Shown here one piece after another: positions 25,262 through 37,124 of a DNA stretch of 64,000 bases (positions within the stretch are counted from its first letter, which is position 1; the number at the start of each line of letters is the position of its first letter). Under the pieces are notes generated by a model that was not told the origin of the DNA, made no database searches, and saw nothing but the letters and a program-made list of their open reading frames with translations. A program made the position numbers and the translations under genes. Location of the stretch: positions 1,488,001-1,552,000 of the forward strand of contig JAALGY010000017.1 in NCBI GenBank assembly GCA_032358165.1. Reading direction: 5' to 3'. The stretch comes from Diplosphaera chodatii. Taxonomy: Eukaryota > Chlorophyta > Trebouxiophyceae > Prasiolales > Stichococcaceae.

Positions 25262-27055
25262 TGGCGGGCAGTGCAATGCAATCTTGCACTGCAATGTGGT
25301 CTAGTCCAAAACTTGACACCTATCACCTTCACCCTGCAGATGGCAACCTGTAGGCACGGTCGAGTCTGCTTGCTGCAGGATGACCAGGGATGCACCCAGC
25401 CTACGACCTGCTGTTTCGTTGGTTGATTGCTTGCCTCAGTCAAAATTGCACAGCTCTGGTGGGCTTCATCGTTGTATGATAGGCTGAGTGCTGCAATAGG
25501 CAGCAGCGACTGCTGGCTCTGGTGTTCTGCATGCTTGTTGGAGCCCTGTGGGCCATGCATGCAGCCATCGGCTCGACGACCTCCTGTGATGACCTGCATG
25601 CTTGCGAGCTCTTCTGCAGTGAAGTATGCAATGCACTTTGCTGCTCGCAACGTTTGGTGTTCATTGGTTGGCTCATTCAGTCGGTGAGAGGACTAGCGCA
25701 AATCGTTTACTTTCCCACTTGGGTTGTTCGGGCCAGCATACATGCAGCATCTCAGCAGGTTGTACATTGCACGACGGTGCAAATGTATCTATCAAATTTG
25801 GTGGACTGTGATGACTCTGAGCTTGTGTCCTCCTGTGCCTCGTGGTCTGTTATCATGAATATAACAGCTGTAATCACAAACAGCTGTAATCTTAAATGTA
25901 ATGCACTTCAAGGCGAGGCTGCAGGCTACGTACAGTGACAAAGCAAGACAGTCAGTTATATTGCACACCGGAGTCTGACGGTACAGGGTGGTCAAGTGAC
26001 GTCCAGGGGATTCTGCCTCAACCCCTCAAGGCCTCGCCCGCCAAACGGCGCCGGCAGCCAGATCCGCCCTTGCGCGTCACACACCGGCGCAGCAAGGTAT
26101 CGCTGCTGCATTAGCCAACGACTGGAGCTGGCAGCGTTACTCAGGGAGAATTATCAGGACAGAGTGGGGTTTTGCGAGGCTAGGAGTGCGTGCACAGCAC
26201 CTGCAAGCAGCACTCGGCCCTGCAAACGCTGCGGGTACTTGCACAGCCAACAAACCGCCAGCATGCGCCAGGTAAGGCGTGGTGGTCGCCTCCTTGCAGG
26301 CCGCCTGCCACCACCAGCGAGTATGAAATCACACAACGCACGGTCTGCGCAGCAGCACAGTCCCGAGGGCCATTTAGCGGCCGGTCTGGCAGCTATCCGC
26401 CTGTCAGCTGCCGATTGTCCCGGCGTGGGGTACGCTGTGACCTGTTTCAGGGTAGCCTTAATTGTTCATGAGGGGGACGACTGGAAACTGCACGTTCAGC
26501 CGAGCCGAGCAGCCGGTGACAGTCTGCGGTCCGGGCCACATGGGCCCTGCTGGCGTGTTACGAAGGAAGTGGGGCCAGTTGGCGTCCTGCGGGCGGCGCA
26601 CAAGCCGCGTCTACCGCTCTGAAGCTGGGCTTGTGTCGGGCGCCACAGGAGCCACACGGGCGGCTGCTGCACCTTGTCAGCGGCTCGTGGGGCTACTAGC
26701 TGGCATGTCAGGCCTGTGCAGTGGGTCTTTAGTGCAGATCTTCCTGCGCCCTGGTCACCCTGTGTGCTAGCCGGCGTTGACGCTCCTACTTCCGTCCGGC
26801 AAGGCTGTCCTCTCCGCATGTTCTTTGGCTGGTGCAGCCGCTCGTGCTACAGTCGTGCGTCAGGATCGCGTCGTTTGCGGATCAGTCTCGGCGGATTGGG
26901 CAGGCAGGCCGCCGGGATGATTGCCTTGTTGCAAACCTGTGTGTGGCCAGGTCCGTCCTCCCGGGTTGTGCGTCCTGGCACGCAGAGTGGTCGGCCCAAA
27001 CGTTTCGAATTTCAGATACTGTGGCCACGCGCAGCGGCACTTTGTGGTGACGCGC
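25262..27055. other. Gene-poor stretch between the membrane protein and the glycoprotein
   Basis: About 1.8 kb. The first part is AT-richer than the surroundings and includes three TGTAA pentamers within 40 bases (25870-25905), the usual chlorophyte polyadenylation signal. A 208-codon plus frame at 25996-26622 has unnatural composition and no domains. The final part should hold the promoter of the glycoprotein gene. No gene is called. Confidence 0.5.
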
Positions 27056-30000
27056 ATGCTGTTGTGGCTGCAGGCATGGCGCATGTGGGCAGCGGTAGTG
27101 GCGGCGCTCGTGGCCACCGCGGCGGCTCAGGGCTCTGAGAGTCTGACGGAGACGGCGCCGGGCGCTGACGGCCAGCCGGCAACGTACGTCGTCACCACTG
27201 GCGCGTACTTGACCACCGCAGCCTCCGCCGGCATTGAGACGGCGTACACGCTGTCCACCGGCGCCTCGGACACCACTTTCACCTTCCTGGTGCGTGGTCA
27301 GGATCATGGGACTACATGTCACGGCAAGGACCTTGCTATGCGCATGTGGTCAGGGAGACTGCATGGGCTGATCATTGTGAGCCACTGATGCTTTCATTCA
27401 ACATTGTAACCTGACTCGCACACCTCTGCGGTATGTCAGGTGTCAGCGGGCACCGGGGGCCGTGCCATCGAGAACGTGGAGCTGCGCCTGGATGCTGCGC
27501 TGGCCGCCACTCCCGGCGTGATCACCAGCACGGAGCCGACGGCAGCCGTCCAGCAGTCCAACGCAAACGGTGCTCACTTGTGTCCTGCCTCGCATGGAGC
27601 TGGGTACCATGCGCAGCAGTGGATCGCTTGGTGTCCTGGTAACGAGAATAACGTGGGACCCATGGACGTGTCAGCCGTCACGCTGACCATGCACCCTGCT
27701 CCCCTGTCTGCTCACAGGTGGCCCGGCGTTGGTGTGGCCATGGCAGGACGTGGGCGAGGTGCAGACATTCCAGGTGTCCATCTCCAATGACGGCCAGGAG
27801 CCGCCGCTGTTCCTGTCGCACATCGCAGCACAGAATATCACGGTGGTCAACACGGCTGGGGGGTCGGCCACCCTCTTCACGCAGCCGCCGCTCACCTCCG
27901 GCACCTCCGGCTCTGCTGTGTGAGTGTTGCTGTTGACTGTGGACAAGCGCGGTCTGCATTGTTCTGCCGCCAACCCCTGCTGATGTCGAAGGCAGCCATA
28001 TGCACGGACGGATTGCACGCTGATTGCCTGCTGCCGCGTGTCTGCAGGCTCATCATCACCTTCAGCGACAGCACATCGGCGTACTCGCTGCTGACTGACA
28101 ACGAGAATGTGGTGTCGGGTGACACACCTGCGCCCACGGCCGTGCCGGCAGTCCCGCTGCCCGTGCCAATCCCGCTGCCAGCGCCAGCGCCCGACACCTC
28201 TGCACCAGCGCCCGACACCTCTGCACCAGTGCCCGAAACCTCGCCAGCCTACGGCGGCAGCTACGGCGGCGGCTCGGGGTACGGCTACTATAACTCGGCG
28301 GCATACGCTGCCCCGCCGCCGCCACCGCCGCCCCCTCCGCCACCGCCGCCGCCACCTCCGCCACCTAGCACTTCTGCCGGCTATGGTGGTGAGTGTGCTG
28401 CCACACCAGACCATGCTCCGGCCTGCAGCGCGCCTGCTTGCTTTTCTGCGGGTGTTGTTGGCTGCCTCGCAGCCGGGCATAGCTTTTTACATCGGGCTTG
28501 AGACACTGCTACCCCTTGCCCCACTAAAACGCGTCTGTATGACATGGTAAGGACGTCATTTCTGCAGGTGCTGACGTGGCTGCATACAGCCCGCCCCCTC
28601 CGCCACCGCCTCCACCACCGCCCCCGCCGCCGCCCCCACCCCCAGCCTACACTTCGTATGCAGCGGGTGCAGCTGCTTCGTACACCTCGTACCAGCCGCC
28701 CCCTCCGCCGCCGCCGCCGCCGCCGCCCCCGCCACCGCCCCCGCCGCCTGCTTATGTGGGAGCCTACCCCGCCTCAGGTGTGTAGTCGTGTGGTGTGCCT
28801 GCTGATAACATACGATGTCAATTTCGTACAGAATGAGGCTGCTTTGTGACAGTGAACCCCAGCCAGGAGATGCATGCAGCAGTTTGCCCCAGTTGCTCGG
28901 ACTGAGTAGACTACGGTTGCTAGATCATCAGCCTGATGATCTTGTATCTGCTGATGTTGTTATGCAGGCTATGCGCCTCCCCCACCACCACCACCGCCTC
29001 CTCCGCCCCCACCGCCTCCCCCGCCACCAAGCCAGTATGGTGCAGCAGCATCCGAAGGCTATGGTCCAAGTTACGCTCCGCCGCCGCCACCGCCACCGCC
29101 GCCCCCGCCCCCACCACCGCCACCGCCCCCAACCAACTTCGGAGCCCCTCTGGGCGCCTACCCGGCTGCAGGTGAGGCAGATCCACACTCAGTGGATCTA
29201 CTCTCCGATGTCCTTGCATGGCTATATGATATTGCATCTCGACACCATCTTGCTGTGTTTTTTTTCATCGTGCAAGTTCACATACAAACCTTGCCGTTTG
29301 ACTTCCAGGCTACTCTTCTGCTCCGCCGCCCCCGCCGCCGCCACCACCACCGCCCCCGCCGCCGCCTCCGCCACCTGTGACCTACTTTGGAGCCGTTGGA
29401 GCTGAGTCGTATGGCTATGCACCGCCGCCGCCGCCTCCTCCCCCACCGCCACCCCCGCCCCCGCCGCCACCACCAACCTACTTTGGAGCTCCCCTGGGCG
29501 CCTCCCCGGCCGCAGGTGGGTTCCCCGCCCTGGTGTCACCTTTTTGTTTCTTTGAAGAGTACTGCATTGTCGTCATGGCATAACATGGCGTCTGACACAC
29601 GCTGCCGTTGCGTGGAGTGCTATACTGTGGACACGTGTGGGCTGATGGAGGTTGTTTGCCTCAGGTTACTCGTCTGCACCGCCCCCTCCACCACCACCCC
29701 CGCCCCCGCCACCACCGCCACCCCCGCCACCAGTCGCCACGTACTCCTCTCCCGTGGCAGGCTATGCGCCTTCCTACTCTCCACCACCTCCGCCGCCGCC
29801 GCCGCCGCCGCCCCCACCCCCTCCACCACCAGCTGGTGCGTGCTCTGCCTTGCTGCCGGCCTGATTGCCGGCGAGCTGTGTCAAAAGGCTCCTGCTACTA
29901 GCTTCAGATAGCAGCAATGCTGCCGCTATCTTGCTGCTGTCATCCAACTTGCTTTGACACCAGCCAACTTGCCTTGACACTAGCCATGAGGTTCCACAGC

Positions 30001-31207
30001 CAGCACTGTCCACTCTGTCCACACCAGCATTGGTGGGAGTGCATCCGCTGGCATGCGATAACGAATTAAAGTCAGTTCCAATACTATCAAGCTATGGAGT
30101 TGCATTGCATGCACTGGAGCGCCTGCATTCCTGGTGCAGGTGGCTACACCGCAGGCGCCTACGGGGGCTATGGTCGCCGGCTGCAGGCAACACAGGCTAC
30201 GGCCGAGCAGCCGCAGGCCAGCGCTGAGGAGGCATGCCTTCGCAATGGCATCTCCAGCACCGCCTACAACAACCTGGTGCGTGGCTACATGCTGAAGTGC
30301 AGCTGCTTGACGTCTCCTGGCACGCTGCATTTCCATCCAGATCACTGCAACTGGCCTGTAGAAATATGCAGATGCACGTTTCTTCGCTGAACACATACAC
30401 TCATTGCTGCAGGTGAAGGACTCTCCTTTCGCGCTTGAGTATGCAGTGAACGGCGGCCGCCACACCGTCACCATCACTGCAAAGGGTATGCGGCTAAGAC
30501 TGCCACATCCTGTCATCTGTGGCAGGCCTCCAGTTGTGGGCAACGATGTGCTCAGTGCACTTAGTGGAGCATTGTGCATTGTGCACAGAGGTCACTCTGA
30601 AGCTCGTCTGCTGCCTGCAGATGAGCTGCCCGATGAGGTGCACCTGCGGCTGTCAGAGGAGGCATTCCAGGCGGAGCGCACAGTCACGCCCGCAGCGGTT
30701 GCGCAGGCTGACTGCACGCCTGTTGGACTGCAGGTAAGCTGTCGAGAGCCGACCAGTGCACATGGTGCCGTCCTCCTGCTGTCTCAATGCCCAGCGTCGG
30801 CAATGTCATGCAAGCTGACGTTTGGCTTGCTTTGTCGGGCAGAACACGCTGCACTTCACAGAGATTCCGTTCGAGCTGGTAGATGGCGTGCACAAGGCCG
30901 TCCTCACGGTGCGCAATGTGTCTGCAAGTTGACGACGCCCTGGACGACTATCCTGTTTCGCATCAGGCCCCGAGTCTTGTCTTCACCAGTTAGCAGGATC
31001 ATCGCCGTTGTTGCCTGCCTCGCTTGTGACGCTGGGCCATGCTGCGAACAGGTTGAGCTGCAGAAGGACGTGCAGCTGGGTGGGGAGGCAGACATCCTGA
31101 GCCAAGGGGGTGTGCAGGTGTTGCAAACGCCGCGCAGCAGCCTGCTTGCGGTTGTCAGCGCAGATGATCGCAGCTGGGCCATTACGCTGCAGCCGCAGCA
31201 GGGTTGA
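27056..31207 (+). CDS. Secreted hydroxyproline-rich (polyproline) glycoprotein
   Basis: Probable extracellular-matrix or cell-wall protein. Thirteen exons (27056-27289, 27440-27569, 27718-27919, 28048-28388, 28568-28777, 28968-29171, 29309-29515, 29665-29835, 30140-30276, 30413-30485, 30621-30733, 30843-30908, 31052-31207) sum to exactly 748 codons. The N-terminus is a signal peptide (WAAVVAALVATAAAQ). A globular domain of about 190 residues follows, then AP-rich spacers (APDTSAPAPDTSAP), then eight blocks of 9-19 consecutive prolines separated by Tyr/Gly/Ala linkers such as TYFGAPLGA, and finally a non-repetitive domain of about 180 residues. The architecture, two globular domains around a polyproline rod, recalls volvocine pherophorins, but I see no pherophorin signature. 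The polyproline would be hydroxylated and arabinosylated if family behaviour holds. Confidence 0.88.
28291..29833 (+). repeat. Array of polyproline-encoding symmetric exons
   Basis: Four consecutive exons (28568-28777, 28968-29171, 29309-29515, 29665-29835) are 210, 204, 207 and 171 bp, all multiples of three, and every one is phase 1 at both ends. Each encodes two proline blocks with Tyr-rich spacers. A fifth proline block ends the preceding exon. The near-identical spacers (TYFGAPLGA, TNFGAPLGA) show recent duplication. Confidence 0.9.
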
Positions 31208-32054
31208 TGTAGCTGGCAGCAGTTTTGTCTGTTGGTGCGTCGCTAACCCCCATGTGTGTTCGTTGCTACTGCTGCGCCTTTGTCGAGGCCACGGCTTCTT
31301 GTCGTGCATGCATGTTGCTTATTGATGTGTTCAAACACTTTCACCTCTGCTCTGTAGGGGACTAGAGCAGGTGGCGGTATTGATGTTCAGCAGCAGGATT
31401 TGGCGTTTGTTTTCCTCAGCATCGTTCCTCCTCGGTGGCATGGCAGCGACATCGTGACAGCACACCGTTGCTACTGTTGCTTGCCCGACGATTCTTTGCC
31501 TGGAGCCCAGTCGGCAGCGCCAGCTGCCGGTGCTTCATGCGTTCATAGATTCAGAGGGGCTGGGGCATATACTGCAGATAGGCAGCACTCTTGTCCACAC
31601 TGTGACACAGCTGCACTCGCAACCATTTAAGCAATGCTGATTCCAATGCAACTTGTGCAAGCATGTGCCCATGTAATGGACACACAGCATGGTGTACTGC
31701 ATGCGTGGTACCGTTCTCCAGCTGGCCATGCACACCAGCGAGCTGATGATAGCAGACGTGAAACCGCTTTATTGCAACAGCAAGTCAGCATGACCATGCA
31801 CCAACAGGTGCTGCGTGGATTGTGTGCGGACCCACTGTGTTGCCATATACGTTTCCAATCCCATGTCCGACAGCATGCTGGGTCAGTAATCCGACAATAT
31901 GTGCCGCATCGGAGTAGAAGACAAACGTTGTGCACTCTAGGAGCTCAACCACAGACACACACAGGTGACCTGTATGTGCACCCTGCTGATTACATAGGCA
32001 CATGTGCATGGCGGCATCGTCATGCGCACTGTTCTGCCCCATGCACATGTGCAG
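31208..32054. other. Region upstream of the RNase Z-like gene
   Basis: It should hold the 3' UTR of the glycoprotein gene and the promoter and first exon(s) of the RNase Z-like gene. An open frame runs 31634-32308 (+) into the first recognised exon, but its N-terminal part has no clear character, so the true first exon is unresolved. Confidence 0.4.
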
Positions 32055-34826
32055 GCCTAAAGGAGCGCGCTCGTGGCCCACCTAACCCAGATATCTGGGT
32101 AAAAGCGCCACCCGCAGCTTTTGCCGACATCGTAGAGTGCAACCCCACCGGCCTACAGCTGACATTCCTGGGCACCGCCGCCAATGATGACCGTCATGGG
32201 TGCGCATTTATAACGGAACTGCCCCCGGTTAGTGACCTACCAGTAGAAGTGAAACATTTCGCTTATGATCAACCATGTCAACGTCATTTACCTTCCCATG
32301 CACGATGATGGTGTGGCAAGCGGCACACATGATGGCTTCGCTGCTTGCAGGCGGCGACGCTTCAGTCTGGCAGTGCGTACGCCGCGGTCGTGCCTGCTGT
32401 TTGACTGCGGCGAGGATACGCAGCGTGCGTTGCTGCAGGCGCCGCATGTGCGGCCATCCCGCATCACGCGTATATTCATTTCCTGCCTAGATGGCGACCA
32501 GGTCTGTGGTCTGCCAGGTGTGTGCGTCCTCTGTCACTGTGCCAGCATGCAGTGACAGGATGTCGCAATGACGCACACCGCTGATTCTGCTGTTTGGGTC
32601 CCTGAGTCGCGCACCCATGATGGCACTCTTGGGCGTCTGTGCAGGCATGCTCTGCACGATTAGCGCGGCGCGCGAGAAAGGCCATGACATGGCGGATGTG
32701 CCGGTAGGCGGCTTGGGTACCATGCTTGCTGCAGTTGTTCCCCTGCCACACATCCGCGAGTTTGCTGCAGCGTCAGCCTATCTGCTCGCACTAGTACCAT
32801 GAGCCTATCTGCTCACACGCGTATGTGCATCTGCAGCTGCACATATATGGACCCAGGGGCGTCGCGCAGTACGTGGACGCAATGCTGCGGGTGTCTGACA
32901 CATACCTGCTCATGCCTGTCGTCATCCACGAGTTCGCGGTGCAGCCCCCCGATCTCACGGGGTGGCAACCAGACGAGGTGCGGTGCACAGCTTGCAAATA
33001 ACCTGAAAGTCGGTTTGCTTGGAGCCAGAGCATCAGCATGTAGTCGCTGCGCCACCCTGCTCATCAGCAGGTTGTGTCCCACACGCTTCCTGCATGTGTG
33101 CAGCTGGAGCAGTGGGGCCCGGATGTAGAGCAGATCAACAGGCGGGCACGCTTGTACATTTGCACGCTGCCGCCCGACCAGCTCAATCCAGCTGGCCACT
33201 ACGATGGCTCGCAGACGACCATGCTCAGCGTGCGTGGTGTTGCCAGGCATGAGCGGTCAAGTGCCTGACAGTGATGGCCGCCCTGCTGGCTGGATGCCAG
33301 CCCTCAGAGCAGCCCACCGCAAGGCCCCAGTTGAAGACCTGTTGCGGTTGAAGACCTGAGGCGGCGTGTGCGTGATGCCTGTAGCGCAGAGCCAAGAACG
33401 GGGGTCGCCTCAGAGGTGGCGACGCACGAGCCGGCACACTGCCAATGGAGCTGCCACCGCCAGGTGTGCATTTGAGGCAGTCGTTGCTCTCTTAGTAATC
33501 ATAGTAAGATCATGCTGTGAGATGTTGGCCGTCTGCAAGCGTCTGTGACCAGTAATGTGGACGAACAAGACCAGCCTCTCTGACCATATGAGGTGGTGTA
33601 CACATGTGGGCAAGCCTACTGCTCTGTGCCACAGGGAACCCAGCTGCGTCAAACGTGCGGTTACCAGACATGACCTGGACCATCCGTTCTGACGACGACT
33701 ATGTAGTCACAGCGTCAGCGCTGCAACACGACAGTGCCCCCTGCATTGCGTACACCTTCACTGAGGCAGACAGGTGGCCTGTCATGCCAGTATGCATGCA
33801 AACGAAATCTCAATCACATGGCCCCACAAGATTGCAAGCCAGCAGAACGCCGTGATGTAAGTGACAACGATGCACAACACTCATGATTGCGCACGGCAGG
33901 AGCGGCGTGCTGGATCCAGACAAGGCAGTTGCTCTGGGCGTGCGACCTGGCCGGGCCTTTGCAGAGCTGAAGGCCGGGCGGGCCGTGGCAACAGCAGAAG
34001 GCCGCACAGTGGAGCCCTCGGAGGTGTGCGCTGTGGTGGACATGGGCGCCGGGCACAGTCAGAAAGGCAGGGCGAACCTGCAGCCCTGCTGTGTTCCTAA
34101 ACCTGTACGTTTGTGAACTGGAAGGTGCTGGGGGCCAACCGTCCTGGGCGGCGCTTGTTGATACTCGGAGAGAGCCAGCAGCCAACGGCACCAGCAGCCG
34201 CAGCTCAATGCGATGTTGTTGTTGTGGCACCCGCCTCCTACAAGGTGTGTCTTGCATGGCATTGCCGTGAAGCAGAGAAAGCAGCACTTGAACTTGAGTG
34301 TCAAGTCGGAAGGCCTCACAGCACCTTGCTCATCATTTGCGATGCGGTCATCCGTAGGGCGTAGGCATGGCGGCAACTGCAGCTGCACTGGCTGCTCAGC
34401 TAGGTATTTCTGCTGCACTGTACCATACATGCAGCGGGGCTTGCATGACCAAATATGAATAATGCTTGTTTGTCGTGTGATCGTCCTGCACCACGTGTTT
34501 GTGCATCCAATTTGGTGACAGCTGTGCATGAATGCACAGGAGCAAGGCAGCTGATTGTTGCACGGCATGCAATTGGACAGAGGCACTTGGCAGGTACAGT
34601 ATGACCCGCAGATCGGATGCACAGTGACTGACTGTGTGAGGTAAATGCAGTTCACTGTTGGAGTGCATGGTGTCTCAAGCTGTCTGCAATGGGCTACATC
34701 GCAGGTGCAGCAGCCGACGGTGATGTGACAGAGGCAGCAAGAGCGCTTCAGGACAGCAATGTTGTATCAGCGTTGGACCTGGGCATCATAAACTTGCCAC
34801 GGCCAGAGCCAGCAATGGCACAATGA
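32055..34826 (+). CDS. Ribonuclease Z (ELAC1-like) fold protein, catalytic motifs degenerate
   Basis: Relative of the short tRNA 3'-endonuclease tRNase Z. Recognised exons: to 32199, 32351-32517, 32645-32703, 32837-32977, 33104-about 33233, 33635-33773, 33900-34023, 34125-34244, 34358-34403, 34540-34593, 34705-34826. Family landmarks in order: LTFLGTAA, LLFDCGEDTQ, ITRIFIS, GLPGMLCTIS, LHIYGPRGV, the exosite-like RPGRAFAELKAG, GRRLLILGE, ARQLIVARH. The metallo-hydrolase motif HxHxDH reads CLDGDQ, the later GDT reads GES, VHEAT reads VVAPAS and GHST reads GVGM. Most metal ligands are therefore gone although frame and splice sites are intact. It is probably a pseudoenzyme or has a new role. It ends with its own stop, so it is not the N-terminal half of a long tRNase Z. 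The 5' end is incomplete. Confidence 0.8.
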
Positions 34827-35100
34827 CCACCCACACATGGTCATAGCATTGAAGTTCGATAAAGTTACGTGTGAAGTAACTACCGTGACCATAGCGCATG
34901 CAGGCCAACATTGGCTTGCCATTCCGCTTTGATTGCTCCAACGAACATCGGCAATGCTAGCTGCATTGCTCATTCTGAGTTGCAACTTTCTGGTGCTCAT
35001 TGGATTTGTAGAAGACACCGGCAGGTGGCAGCAAACTCTTTATCTACATGCTGACTGCCAGCTCTCTGTGAGGCTGTGCCGCATACGAGGCAGAAGGACT

Positions 35101-36313
35101 TCAGCGCAGTGACTCGCTGGGCTTCTTGGAAATCTTGTCTGTGATGTCGATGCACTTCTGTGCCTCGTGCGGGTGGCTTGTGCCCTTGTACACCTGCAGC
35201 ACCATGCCTCATGCTGAGTATCCTGACACGGTGCACATTGCAGCACCGGATATCGCACAGCTGTGTGGGGTGGGTGGAGTACCACAAGCATTTGGCATGG
35301 CAGTGCGCCTTGTCGCATGCTGTTGCAGCAGAGATTGCACCTTGAGATGCCGGAACAGGGCATTGCCGAGGCGGCCGCGTGTGAGCATGCCCTTCACTGC
35401 CTTCTCAATGATGCGCTCCGGTATCCGCTACAAGCAGGAAGTCCCCCCATGTCAGTAACATGCCAACATGCTACGACTGGTAAACACTGCTGTGACTACA
35501 GTCATGCAGACTGCAGGAATGCACAGTCCACCTTTGCGCATGTCCGGCAAAACATCAGCATGTGCACATGCCGCCCTTGGACCGCAAGGACGCGATAGCC
35601 ATTGATGACTTGGGAGCAGGAAGCGTCAAGAGGGGCCACGCACCGCCTGCAGGTCCTTGAAGGTCTCGACCTTCATGGACCCGGGGCGCCCGGTGGTGTG
35701 CCGCCGGTACAGCTTCTGGTTGAACTTGTTGCCGGTGACCAGCACCTGCTCCGCGTTGATGACCACCACGTAGCCGCCCATGTCCATGCTGGGCGTGAAC
35801 GTGGGCATGTGCTTGCCCCTGCGCAGCAACGGCAGCGTCATCAACAGTGTGGCGGCAGTGTGGCGGCAGGATGTGAGCGATACGCGCAGGTGGGGCGTGG
35901 AGTGGATATTACGCGCCCTTGACCAACAGCAACAGCAGCACTTAGTAGTGAGCCGAAGGTTGTGCATCACCAAGTGCAGCAGATGCAGCGTTGACCACAT
36001 AGCAGTGCTGGGAGCTGGCGTTCATGTGGCAGCACCTGATGTGGTGCGCTGCCAGTGCTGCCAGACGGCCCAGTGTCTGCCCCTTGGCGTCGATGATGTA
36101 CCAGGCCTTGGTGACGGCCTGGGCGTCCTCGCCGGTGGGGTAGTAGCTGTCGTTCCAGAGGTCCTTGCCCTTACGGGCCACCCTGACACCGGCTGACGCC
36201 ACCACCGACTGCTGCCGCGGTGGCTCTGCCACTGCCGCCGCCGACTCAGCTGCAGATGCAATCAATGAACGTCGGCGGATCTGCGCAGCCGGGCTCCTAG
36301 GTTGCTTGTTCAT
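35101..36313 (-). CDS. PRPL13: Ribosomal protein uL13, plastid type
   Basis: Large-subunit ribosomal protein encoded in the nucleus. Four exons (36036-36313, 35644-35818, 35341-35427, 35101-35193) give 210 aa, with all phases matching. The core reads [65 protein letters not shown] and FRHLKVYKG, which is diagnostic for bacterial/plastid L13. The N-terminal 60 residues are rich in Ser, Ala and Arg ([19 protein letters not shown]), fitting a chloroplast transit peptide, and the C-terminus has a short extension ending [11 protein letters not shown] 36313 is the first in-frame Met; an extra 5' exon cannot be excluded. It lies head to head with the uS15 gene. Confidence 0.93.
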
Positions 36314-37124
36314 GCATGTCGCGACAATGCGGCATGCAGCAGATGTTGATGGCGCTCACCTCTGCACGTCATCACGCCTCGCCGGCGGCTGTGCAGCGGC
36401 GCAGCGCTGTGCTGAAGGTTCAGGAAGTGCAGGCCCTGCAAGCGCCGGGCATGTGTTGGATCACGGAAAGTTGGAGACACACCTCCACAAGGCCAGAGTG
36501 TTGCCACACACGAGCCTGCATGCATGCAGTCGTGTCTGCCTGCAAGTGAGGGATTACACCGCACCTTGCAGAGGCCCCTGCACTCGGTGTGGGCTGCCGA
36601 GCTCCCGAGTTGCGTCCTGTGGCTGCTAAGCTGGCCGATGGCCGCCATGCTGACTGGCCGACCAGATCCCAGGCCGCGCAAGCCCTGCCAGTCGCTGACG
36701 TGTGTTGTAGGTCAGCCTGGTCGGTTTGCCTACACCTGGGCTTCTGCCAACGCCACTGTGCTTGTAATGGGTTGAAACCCTGCAAAGCCAGCGGGATGAC
36801 GCCGGAGAGGGTAGGACGTAGGTCTGCCGCTGCACTTCAACGCGCCTGCTCCCATAACCTCCGCCTGCGCGAGCCCAATCACACCTGTGAAAAAGCGCCT
36901 AGAGCTGCAGAAGCCAGTAGCCGCGCGGGGCCGCACCGGCGTTTGACACTATGGCACAGTGCCTGTGCTCAGCAATGGGCGGCCTTAGTCTCCAGGCGAC
37001 CAGCTCAAACCGCACAAGTAAGCAACAGTGTGCTTTAGAGGGGGGTTGCGCAAGCGATCCACCCATCCGGGCCGCCCTGCGTTGAGGCTCCTGTACCGTA
37101 ACTGGGGCCTGTCAATCCCTGCGC
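36314..37124. promoter_or_regulatory. Shared upstream region of PRPL13 and PRPS15
   Basis: 811 bp separate the start codons of the two divergent plastid ribosomal protein genes. I found no clear TATA element or coding exon. Both promoters and 5' UTRs must lie here. Assignment as regulatory is inferred from gene orientation only. Confidence 0.45.

Follow-up and report, generated by a model that had tools for sequence, protein, structure and literature searches.

The window analysed here, a 64,000-nucleotide stretch of the Diplosphaera chodatii genome (C15:1488001-1552000; the genome comprises 85.6 Mb in 55 contigs), contains a spliced gene whose product belongs to the tRNase Z metallo-beta-lactamase fold and has lost most of its catalytic residues (Table 1). 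We refer to this protein and its relatives as dead tRNase Zs. A second copy of the gene, 74% identical over the gene, lies in the same genome at C47:1496287-1499067. The gene has at least 12 coding exons, 12 of which were traced, and its reading frame ends on the + strand at a stop codon at 34826, the same place as in the homoeologue, which bears out the original prediction that the dead half is free-standing. Exon 33385-33463 was assigned to the gene because the homoeologue conserves it and orthologues carry a basic, proline-rich insert there; a 415-residue model without this exon was used for the TIGR02651, Pfam, PDB and first orthologue searches.

Table 1. The dead tRNase Z gene and its traced exons, in window coordinates
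Feature	Position	Strand	Basis
Dead tRNase Z gene, as traced	32054..34826	+	440-codon spliced model, open in window and homoeologue
Exon 1 as traced, domain start (TGLQLTFLGTAAND)	32054..32199	+	GT donor common to homoeologue, 83% identity
Exon with LLFDCGEDTQR and dead motif II (SCLDGDQVCGLPG)	32351..32517	+	92% identity to homoeologue
Exon MLCTISAAREKGHDMADVP	32645..32703	+	Homoeologue comparison
Exon LHIYGPRGVAQYVDAMLRVSDTYLLMPVVIHEF	32837..32977	+	Homoeologue comparison
Exon with family motif PPDQLNPAGHYDG	33104..33229	+	Homoeologue comparison
Exon RRAKNGGRLRGGDARAGTLPMELPPPG, basic proline-rich insert	33385..33463	+	Homoeologue conserves it; both copies have AG..GT
Exon with motif III region (LQHD)	33635..33773	+	Homoeologue comparison, aligned catalytic columns
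Exon with most of flexible arm (GVLDPDKAVALGVRPGRAFAELKAGRAVATAEGRTVEPSE)	33900..34023	+	Best arm match in gene-oriented frames
Exon with arm end, GES (for GDT) and APAS (for HEAT)	34125..34244	+	Homoeologue comparison, aligned columns
Exon with GVGM in GHST position	34358..34403	+	Homoeologue comparison
Exon ARQLIVARHAIGQ, replacing motif V	34540..34593	+	Homoeologue comparison, aligned columns
Last exon and stop	34705..34826	+	77% identity to homoeologue, least conserved exon

No Met codon lies between 32054 and the domain, and neither the start codon nor a 5' exon was found. The AG at 32053-32054 could serve as an acceptor, in which case an upstream exon may encode part of the first traced residue. 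In the window, the frame of the first exon continues without a stop as far back as 31631 and has ATGs at 31634-31796; in the homoeologue, stops fall within the stretch that matches 31631 to the first exon. No SAP domain was found in the window gene, and a tblastn search of 27001-36500 with eight orthologues (E 50, rows mostly noise) yielded no upstream SAP exon. Upstream of the gene, positions 31380-31620 match the homoeologue at 85-97% identity (60-base bins), a level on a par with the coding exons, and one-base indels between the copies break every frame there; the segment could be a UTR, a promoter or a short RNA. No Rfam family was found in the window at gathering thresholds. Among the neighbours, the gene upstream has CCG/CCA-rich short tandem repeats lined up at 28152-29986, and GC skew is strong at 28001-30000; frames on the - strand at ~35100-36360, recognised by eye, presumably belong to a gene for plastid-type ribosomal protein L13.

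A tRNase Z scaffold without its catalytic motifs

The original prediction, made from the DNA letters and their open reading frames, was that the gene keeps a tRNase Z scaffold while its metal-binding motifs are gone. The scaffold is borne out by matches of the 415-residue model to the NCBIfam RNase_Z model TIGR02651 (150.8 bits, E 4.1e-44, short of the equivalog cut-off of 292.95) and, in the PDB, to human ELAC1 (E 4.1e-33); against Pfam, the window protein stays below every family's cut-off. Exon 32351..32517 matches TIGR02651 positions 15-75. A family motif in exon 33104..33229, PPDQLNP, is invariant in 10 aligned rows, and P0052, outside those 10, reads PPDQKNP.

The motif losses were likewise confirmed: HxHxDH has become CLDGDQ, GDT is GES, HEAT is APAS and HST is GVGM. 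Catalytic residues were counted from aligned columns, as regular expressions falsely reported GDT, HEAT and HST in dead sequences. By alignment, the window protein retains two of nine: the Asp of motif II and, in LQHD, the His of motif III. Two remaining histidines had been proposed, in LQHD and ARH; the first does fall on motif III, but the ARH histidine lies elsewhere in the alignment, and the motif V His column holds an Arg in the window protein. An exon hiding a proper HxHxDH, which might have accounted for the loss, was ruled out by the absence of the motif from the homoeologue and from 13 database orthologues.

A homoeologous copy under selection

The homoeologue shares every lost motif, and all nine catalytic positions read identically in the two copies. 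Every intron acceptor (11 of 11) is conserved, as are 10 of the 11 GT donors; the exception, a GC, belongs to the homoeologue's intron after the exon that ends at 34244. Exons are 77-92% identical between the copies, against 65% of aligned intron columns (893/1373). Over 438 codons, the NG86 method gives dN 0.060 and dS 0.481, a dN/dS of 0.12, far below the value near 1 that would have counted against the original prediction. Residue differences are unevenly spread, with 12/49 at residues 1-49, 1/109 at residues 50-158 and 11/124 in the stretch up to the arm, and with 2/52 in the arm against 23/106 after it.

Loss of every catalytic motif is what a decaying pseudogene, a sequencing error or an assembly error could produce, but the two copies read alike, dN/dS is 0.12, splice sites are kept, and 14 database relatives exist besides fragments, leaving such an origin a negligible chance. 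Because a second copy carries every lost motif and dN/dS is so low, the gene is no artefact: it is a real dead tRNase Z gene, and it is under selection. Each tRNase Z gene of this genome is paired on different contigs (C15/C47, C17/C45 and C13/C53), for which reason the genome looks like a duplicated or hybrid one; dS was measured for two of the homoeologous pairs, at 0.48 and 0.32.

The retained arm and an armless catalytic paralogue

Fragments aside, database relatives of the dead protein comprise 14 sequences, 8 of them without a species name; orthologues occur in Chlorella, Micractinium, Coccomyxa and Pleodorina, and the proteins nearest to it indicate a green alga. Family counts refer to 15 aligned dead rows, which exclude P0008 (a member of the family that stops short of the arm) and the fragments P0014, P0022, P0044 and P0054. 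All 15 keep 0-2 of the nine catalytic residues, HxHxDH is absent from every one, and all have Asp or Glu where the Asp of motif II belongs. This last position, together with Cys, Asp, Asp, Gln, His and Glu at the first six catalytic positions of the window protein, might hint at a new enzyme, its metal site rebuilt with other ligands for a different reaction; the other catalytic positions, however, differ from genus to genus, so that no common new site is visible, and we regard this explanation as very improbable.

What the family has kept is the flexible arm, which in tRNase Z grips the tRNA elbow; the fly enzyme without the arm's hand shows a Km raised almost 100-fold with kcat little affected (PMC3714273, excerpt). 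On a profile of the arm derived from 16 relatives that have it, for which we set 30 bits as our own threshold for a full arm, the 15 dead rows score 35.9-80.4 bits, and the window protein, at 74.2 bits, carries a bacterial-type flexible arm. The arm's GP motif is worn in some members (P0006, P0050 and P0052). Several dead orthologues have SAP-like amino ends, all below Pfam's cut-off. In the volvocine member P0053 (Pleodorina starrii, 1019 residues), the amino end is much extended and includes a stretch that appears SAP-like by eye; no Pfam domain was found in it at E 0.1.

A check of the same genome for a second, active-looking tRNase Z turned up S1, a short tRNase Z with all nine catalytic residues (9/9) and two SAP stretches (30.9 bits, cut-off 23.9). 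S1 scores 3.1 bits for the arm, and no arm match was found in the gene-oriented frames of its locus in either copy. The S1 pair gives dN/dS of 0.043/0.322 = 0.13 over 386 codons. The state of S1 extends to its clade: among the matches listed, none of 80 clade members reaches 30 bits on the arm profile and 6 of 80 reach 10 bits, against at least 30 bits in 38 of the 40 listed matches outside the clade, 14 of those 40 being in the profile. This 80-row set holds all clade members among the best 120 of 3,663 matches, possible fragments included, and two of its rows (P0129 and P0146) lack HxHxDH; a 23-row S1 set was picked by hand from named species, with S1b and P0057. In Coccomyxa, the S1 arm is of normal length and diverged (11.0-25.8 bits), and C. 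elongata also has the dead gene. When predicted C. vulgaris models were superposed on the armed chain 4gcw_A, 284 of the chain's 307 residues were aligned for the S1 type and 294 for the dead type; the comparison of these models does not separate the two types sharply.

A genome search with an Ostreobium S1-type protein gave matches at the S1 and window loci alone. C13 (1287500-1294000) and C53 carry another active-looking tRNase Z, similar to the carboxy half of a long enzyme; the ~2.5 kb upstream showed no amino half whose arm could be recognised. The Thermotoga-type model TIGR02650, a poor probe for plant TM-type enzymes, had no match in the genome. A PF12706 match on C24, which has a pair on C14, was discarded as a tRNase Z candidate, no tRNase Z motif being seen by eye in the listed frames of that locus.

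The phylogeny of dead and S1 proteins was reconstructed from 322 columns, with the arm and HxHxDH left out and long enzymes outside the sample; P0045 is in the trees and, as it ends early, has no arm status. The dead rows group together (100/100), as do the S1 rows (100/99), and the two clades join as sister groups (90/88, unstarred). Placing the dead clade outside makes the trees worse, yet these are not rejected (AU p 0.187 and 0.191). These relationships favour, without proving, a green-algal duplication followed by complementary losses.

Among the matches listed, both genes occur in four of the seven species with a dead gene: C. vulgaris (dead P0003, S1 P0082), Coccomyxa elongata (P0005, P0070), Pleodorina starrii (P0053, P0112) and the D. 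chodatii genome. An S1 of C. sorokiniana, M. tetrahymenae or M. conductrix is absent among the best 120 of 3,663 matches. Conversely, no dead match stands under the names of many algae with an armless S1, including Trebouxia, Symbiochloris, Ostreobium, Bryopsis, Chlamydomonas, Volvox and Dunaliella (7,994 and 7,997 candidates scored). As only those candidates were scored and 8 of the 14 family sequences are nameless, missing matches are not proof of absence; the missing dead partner in these algae is nonetheless the main weakness of reading the dead protein and S1 as one split enzyme.

That same pattern, the SAP-like amino ends of several orthologues (below Pfam's cut-off though they are) and the conservation of arm and core after catalysis was lost would all suit a stand-alone RNA-binding protein, whose arm binds tRNA or another RNA with a tRNA-like elbow without any tRNase Z partner. 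It might serve as a chaperone, in storage, or in the nucleoid or transcription, with a SAP-like domain in some species. Such a role leaves unexplained why the closest catalytic paralogue has lost its arm throughout its clade, and we think it rather unlikely. Dead paralogues are often regulators of active ones, and the further active-looking tRNase Z loci in the genome would offer targets for a dead protein that competes with or inhibits an active enzyme (S1 or long), for example by holding tRNA or forming unproductive dimers. Pure competition, though, gives no reason for the loss of the S1 arm, and we consider a regulator distinctly improbable.

The new evidence instead favours the dead protein as a candidate partner of an active-looking short tRNase Z, because the flexible arm, which the dead protein retains, is exactly what S1 lacks, and this division recurs across the S1 clade. 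In all 15 dead rows the arm is kept and the catalytic residues are lost, and an armless S1 with its catalytic residues intact is encoded in the same genome. Besides the missing dead matches, points that tell against partnership are the sister grouping that falls short of significance, the arm that Coccomyxa S1 keeps although C. elongata has the dead gene, the worn GP motif of some dead proteins, the models that hardly separate the two types, and the window gene's want of a SAP domain. Judged on sequence, it is somewhat probable that the dead protein and S1 are one enzyme split over two genes, copying the halves of tRNase ZL in trans. The dead subunit would supply the tRNA-gripping arm and the armless, SAP-domain subunit S1 would do the cutting, a duplicated homodimeric enzyme having become a heterodimer by complementary loss.

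Known systems and a possible division of labour

Pairs of an active nuclease and a dead or weakened paralogue are familiar from CPSF73-CPSF100, INTS11-INTS9 and RNase J1-J2. These differ from the algal pair in being Beta-CASP proteins rather than tRNase Zs and in having, to our knowledge, no flexible arm. Within the tRNase Z family, the bacterial-type short enzymes (B. subtilis RNase Z, E. coli RNase BN/ZipD, human ELAC1) differ from the dead proteins, which have at most two of the nine catalytic residues left. The closer parallel is tRNase ZL, whose N-domain has the arm without a metal site and whose C-domain has the metal site without an arm (PMC3714273, excerpt). Like the window protein, its amino half (ELAC2, yeast Trz1) is a dead metallo-beta-lactamase unit that keeps a flexible arm, as that excerpt describes it; that half, however, is fused to an active one, whereas the window protein is a separate gene product, and the tree, built without long enzymes, places the dead family with S1 and other short forms.

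A survey of green plants described tRNase Z-like proteins (TLPs), relatives of tRNase Z with conserved motifs missing that are widespread in green algae, and in the part available judged them most likely to be without activity (PMC3161902). The window protein resembles TLPs as a tRNase Z relative without the motifs needed for activity. Many TLPs, according to the same part of the survey, are armless with their remaining motifs intact, a state shared with S1 and the opposite of that of the dead protein; CreTLP1, CreTLP2 and VcaTLP1 might be orthologues of one or the other. A heterodimer has precedent in a 2010 fungal survey, a passage of which reports two short tRNase Zs, one of them armless, in four Basidiomycota and considers a heterodimer resembling tRNase ZL likely (PMC2942849). 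Those pairs belong to another lineage, and the passage does not state that the armed member is dead.

Literature searches on tRNase Z in Chlorella, on RNase Z with a SAP domain and on an armed RNase Z pseudoenzyme, which covered few subscription papers, found nothing. As far as these searches reach, novelty lies in the algal family of dead proteins that bear an arm, in the conservation and selection it shows, and in the way its loss matches the loss of the arm in its paralogue.

Whether green algae have gone further, exchanging a short tRNase Z that worked by itself for an obligate enzyme of two gene products, made of a dead arm subunit and an armless SAP-domain cutter, we hold to be an evenly balanced question on the present comparisons. 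If they have, the division of labour of tRNase ZL would have been invented independently, between separate genes, and the persistence of armless algal tRNase Z-like proteins would be explained; the published judgement that algal tRNase Z-like proteins are most likely inactive, as worded in the part of the survey available (PMC3161902), would be overturned for the armless ones. Tallies of tRNase Zs that rely on HxHxDH alone or on the arm alone could then score half-enzymes as whole. The dead protein and S1 would, if partners, document clearly how complementary loss turned a homodimer into a heterodimer, the diverged arm of Coccomyxa S1 being a surviving intermediate, and would provide a test system for the origin of tRNase ZL.
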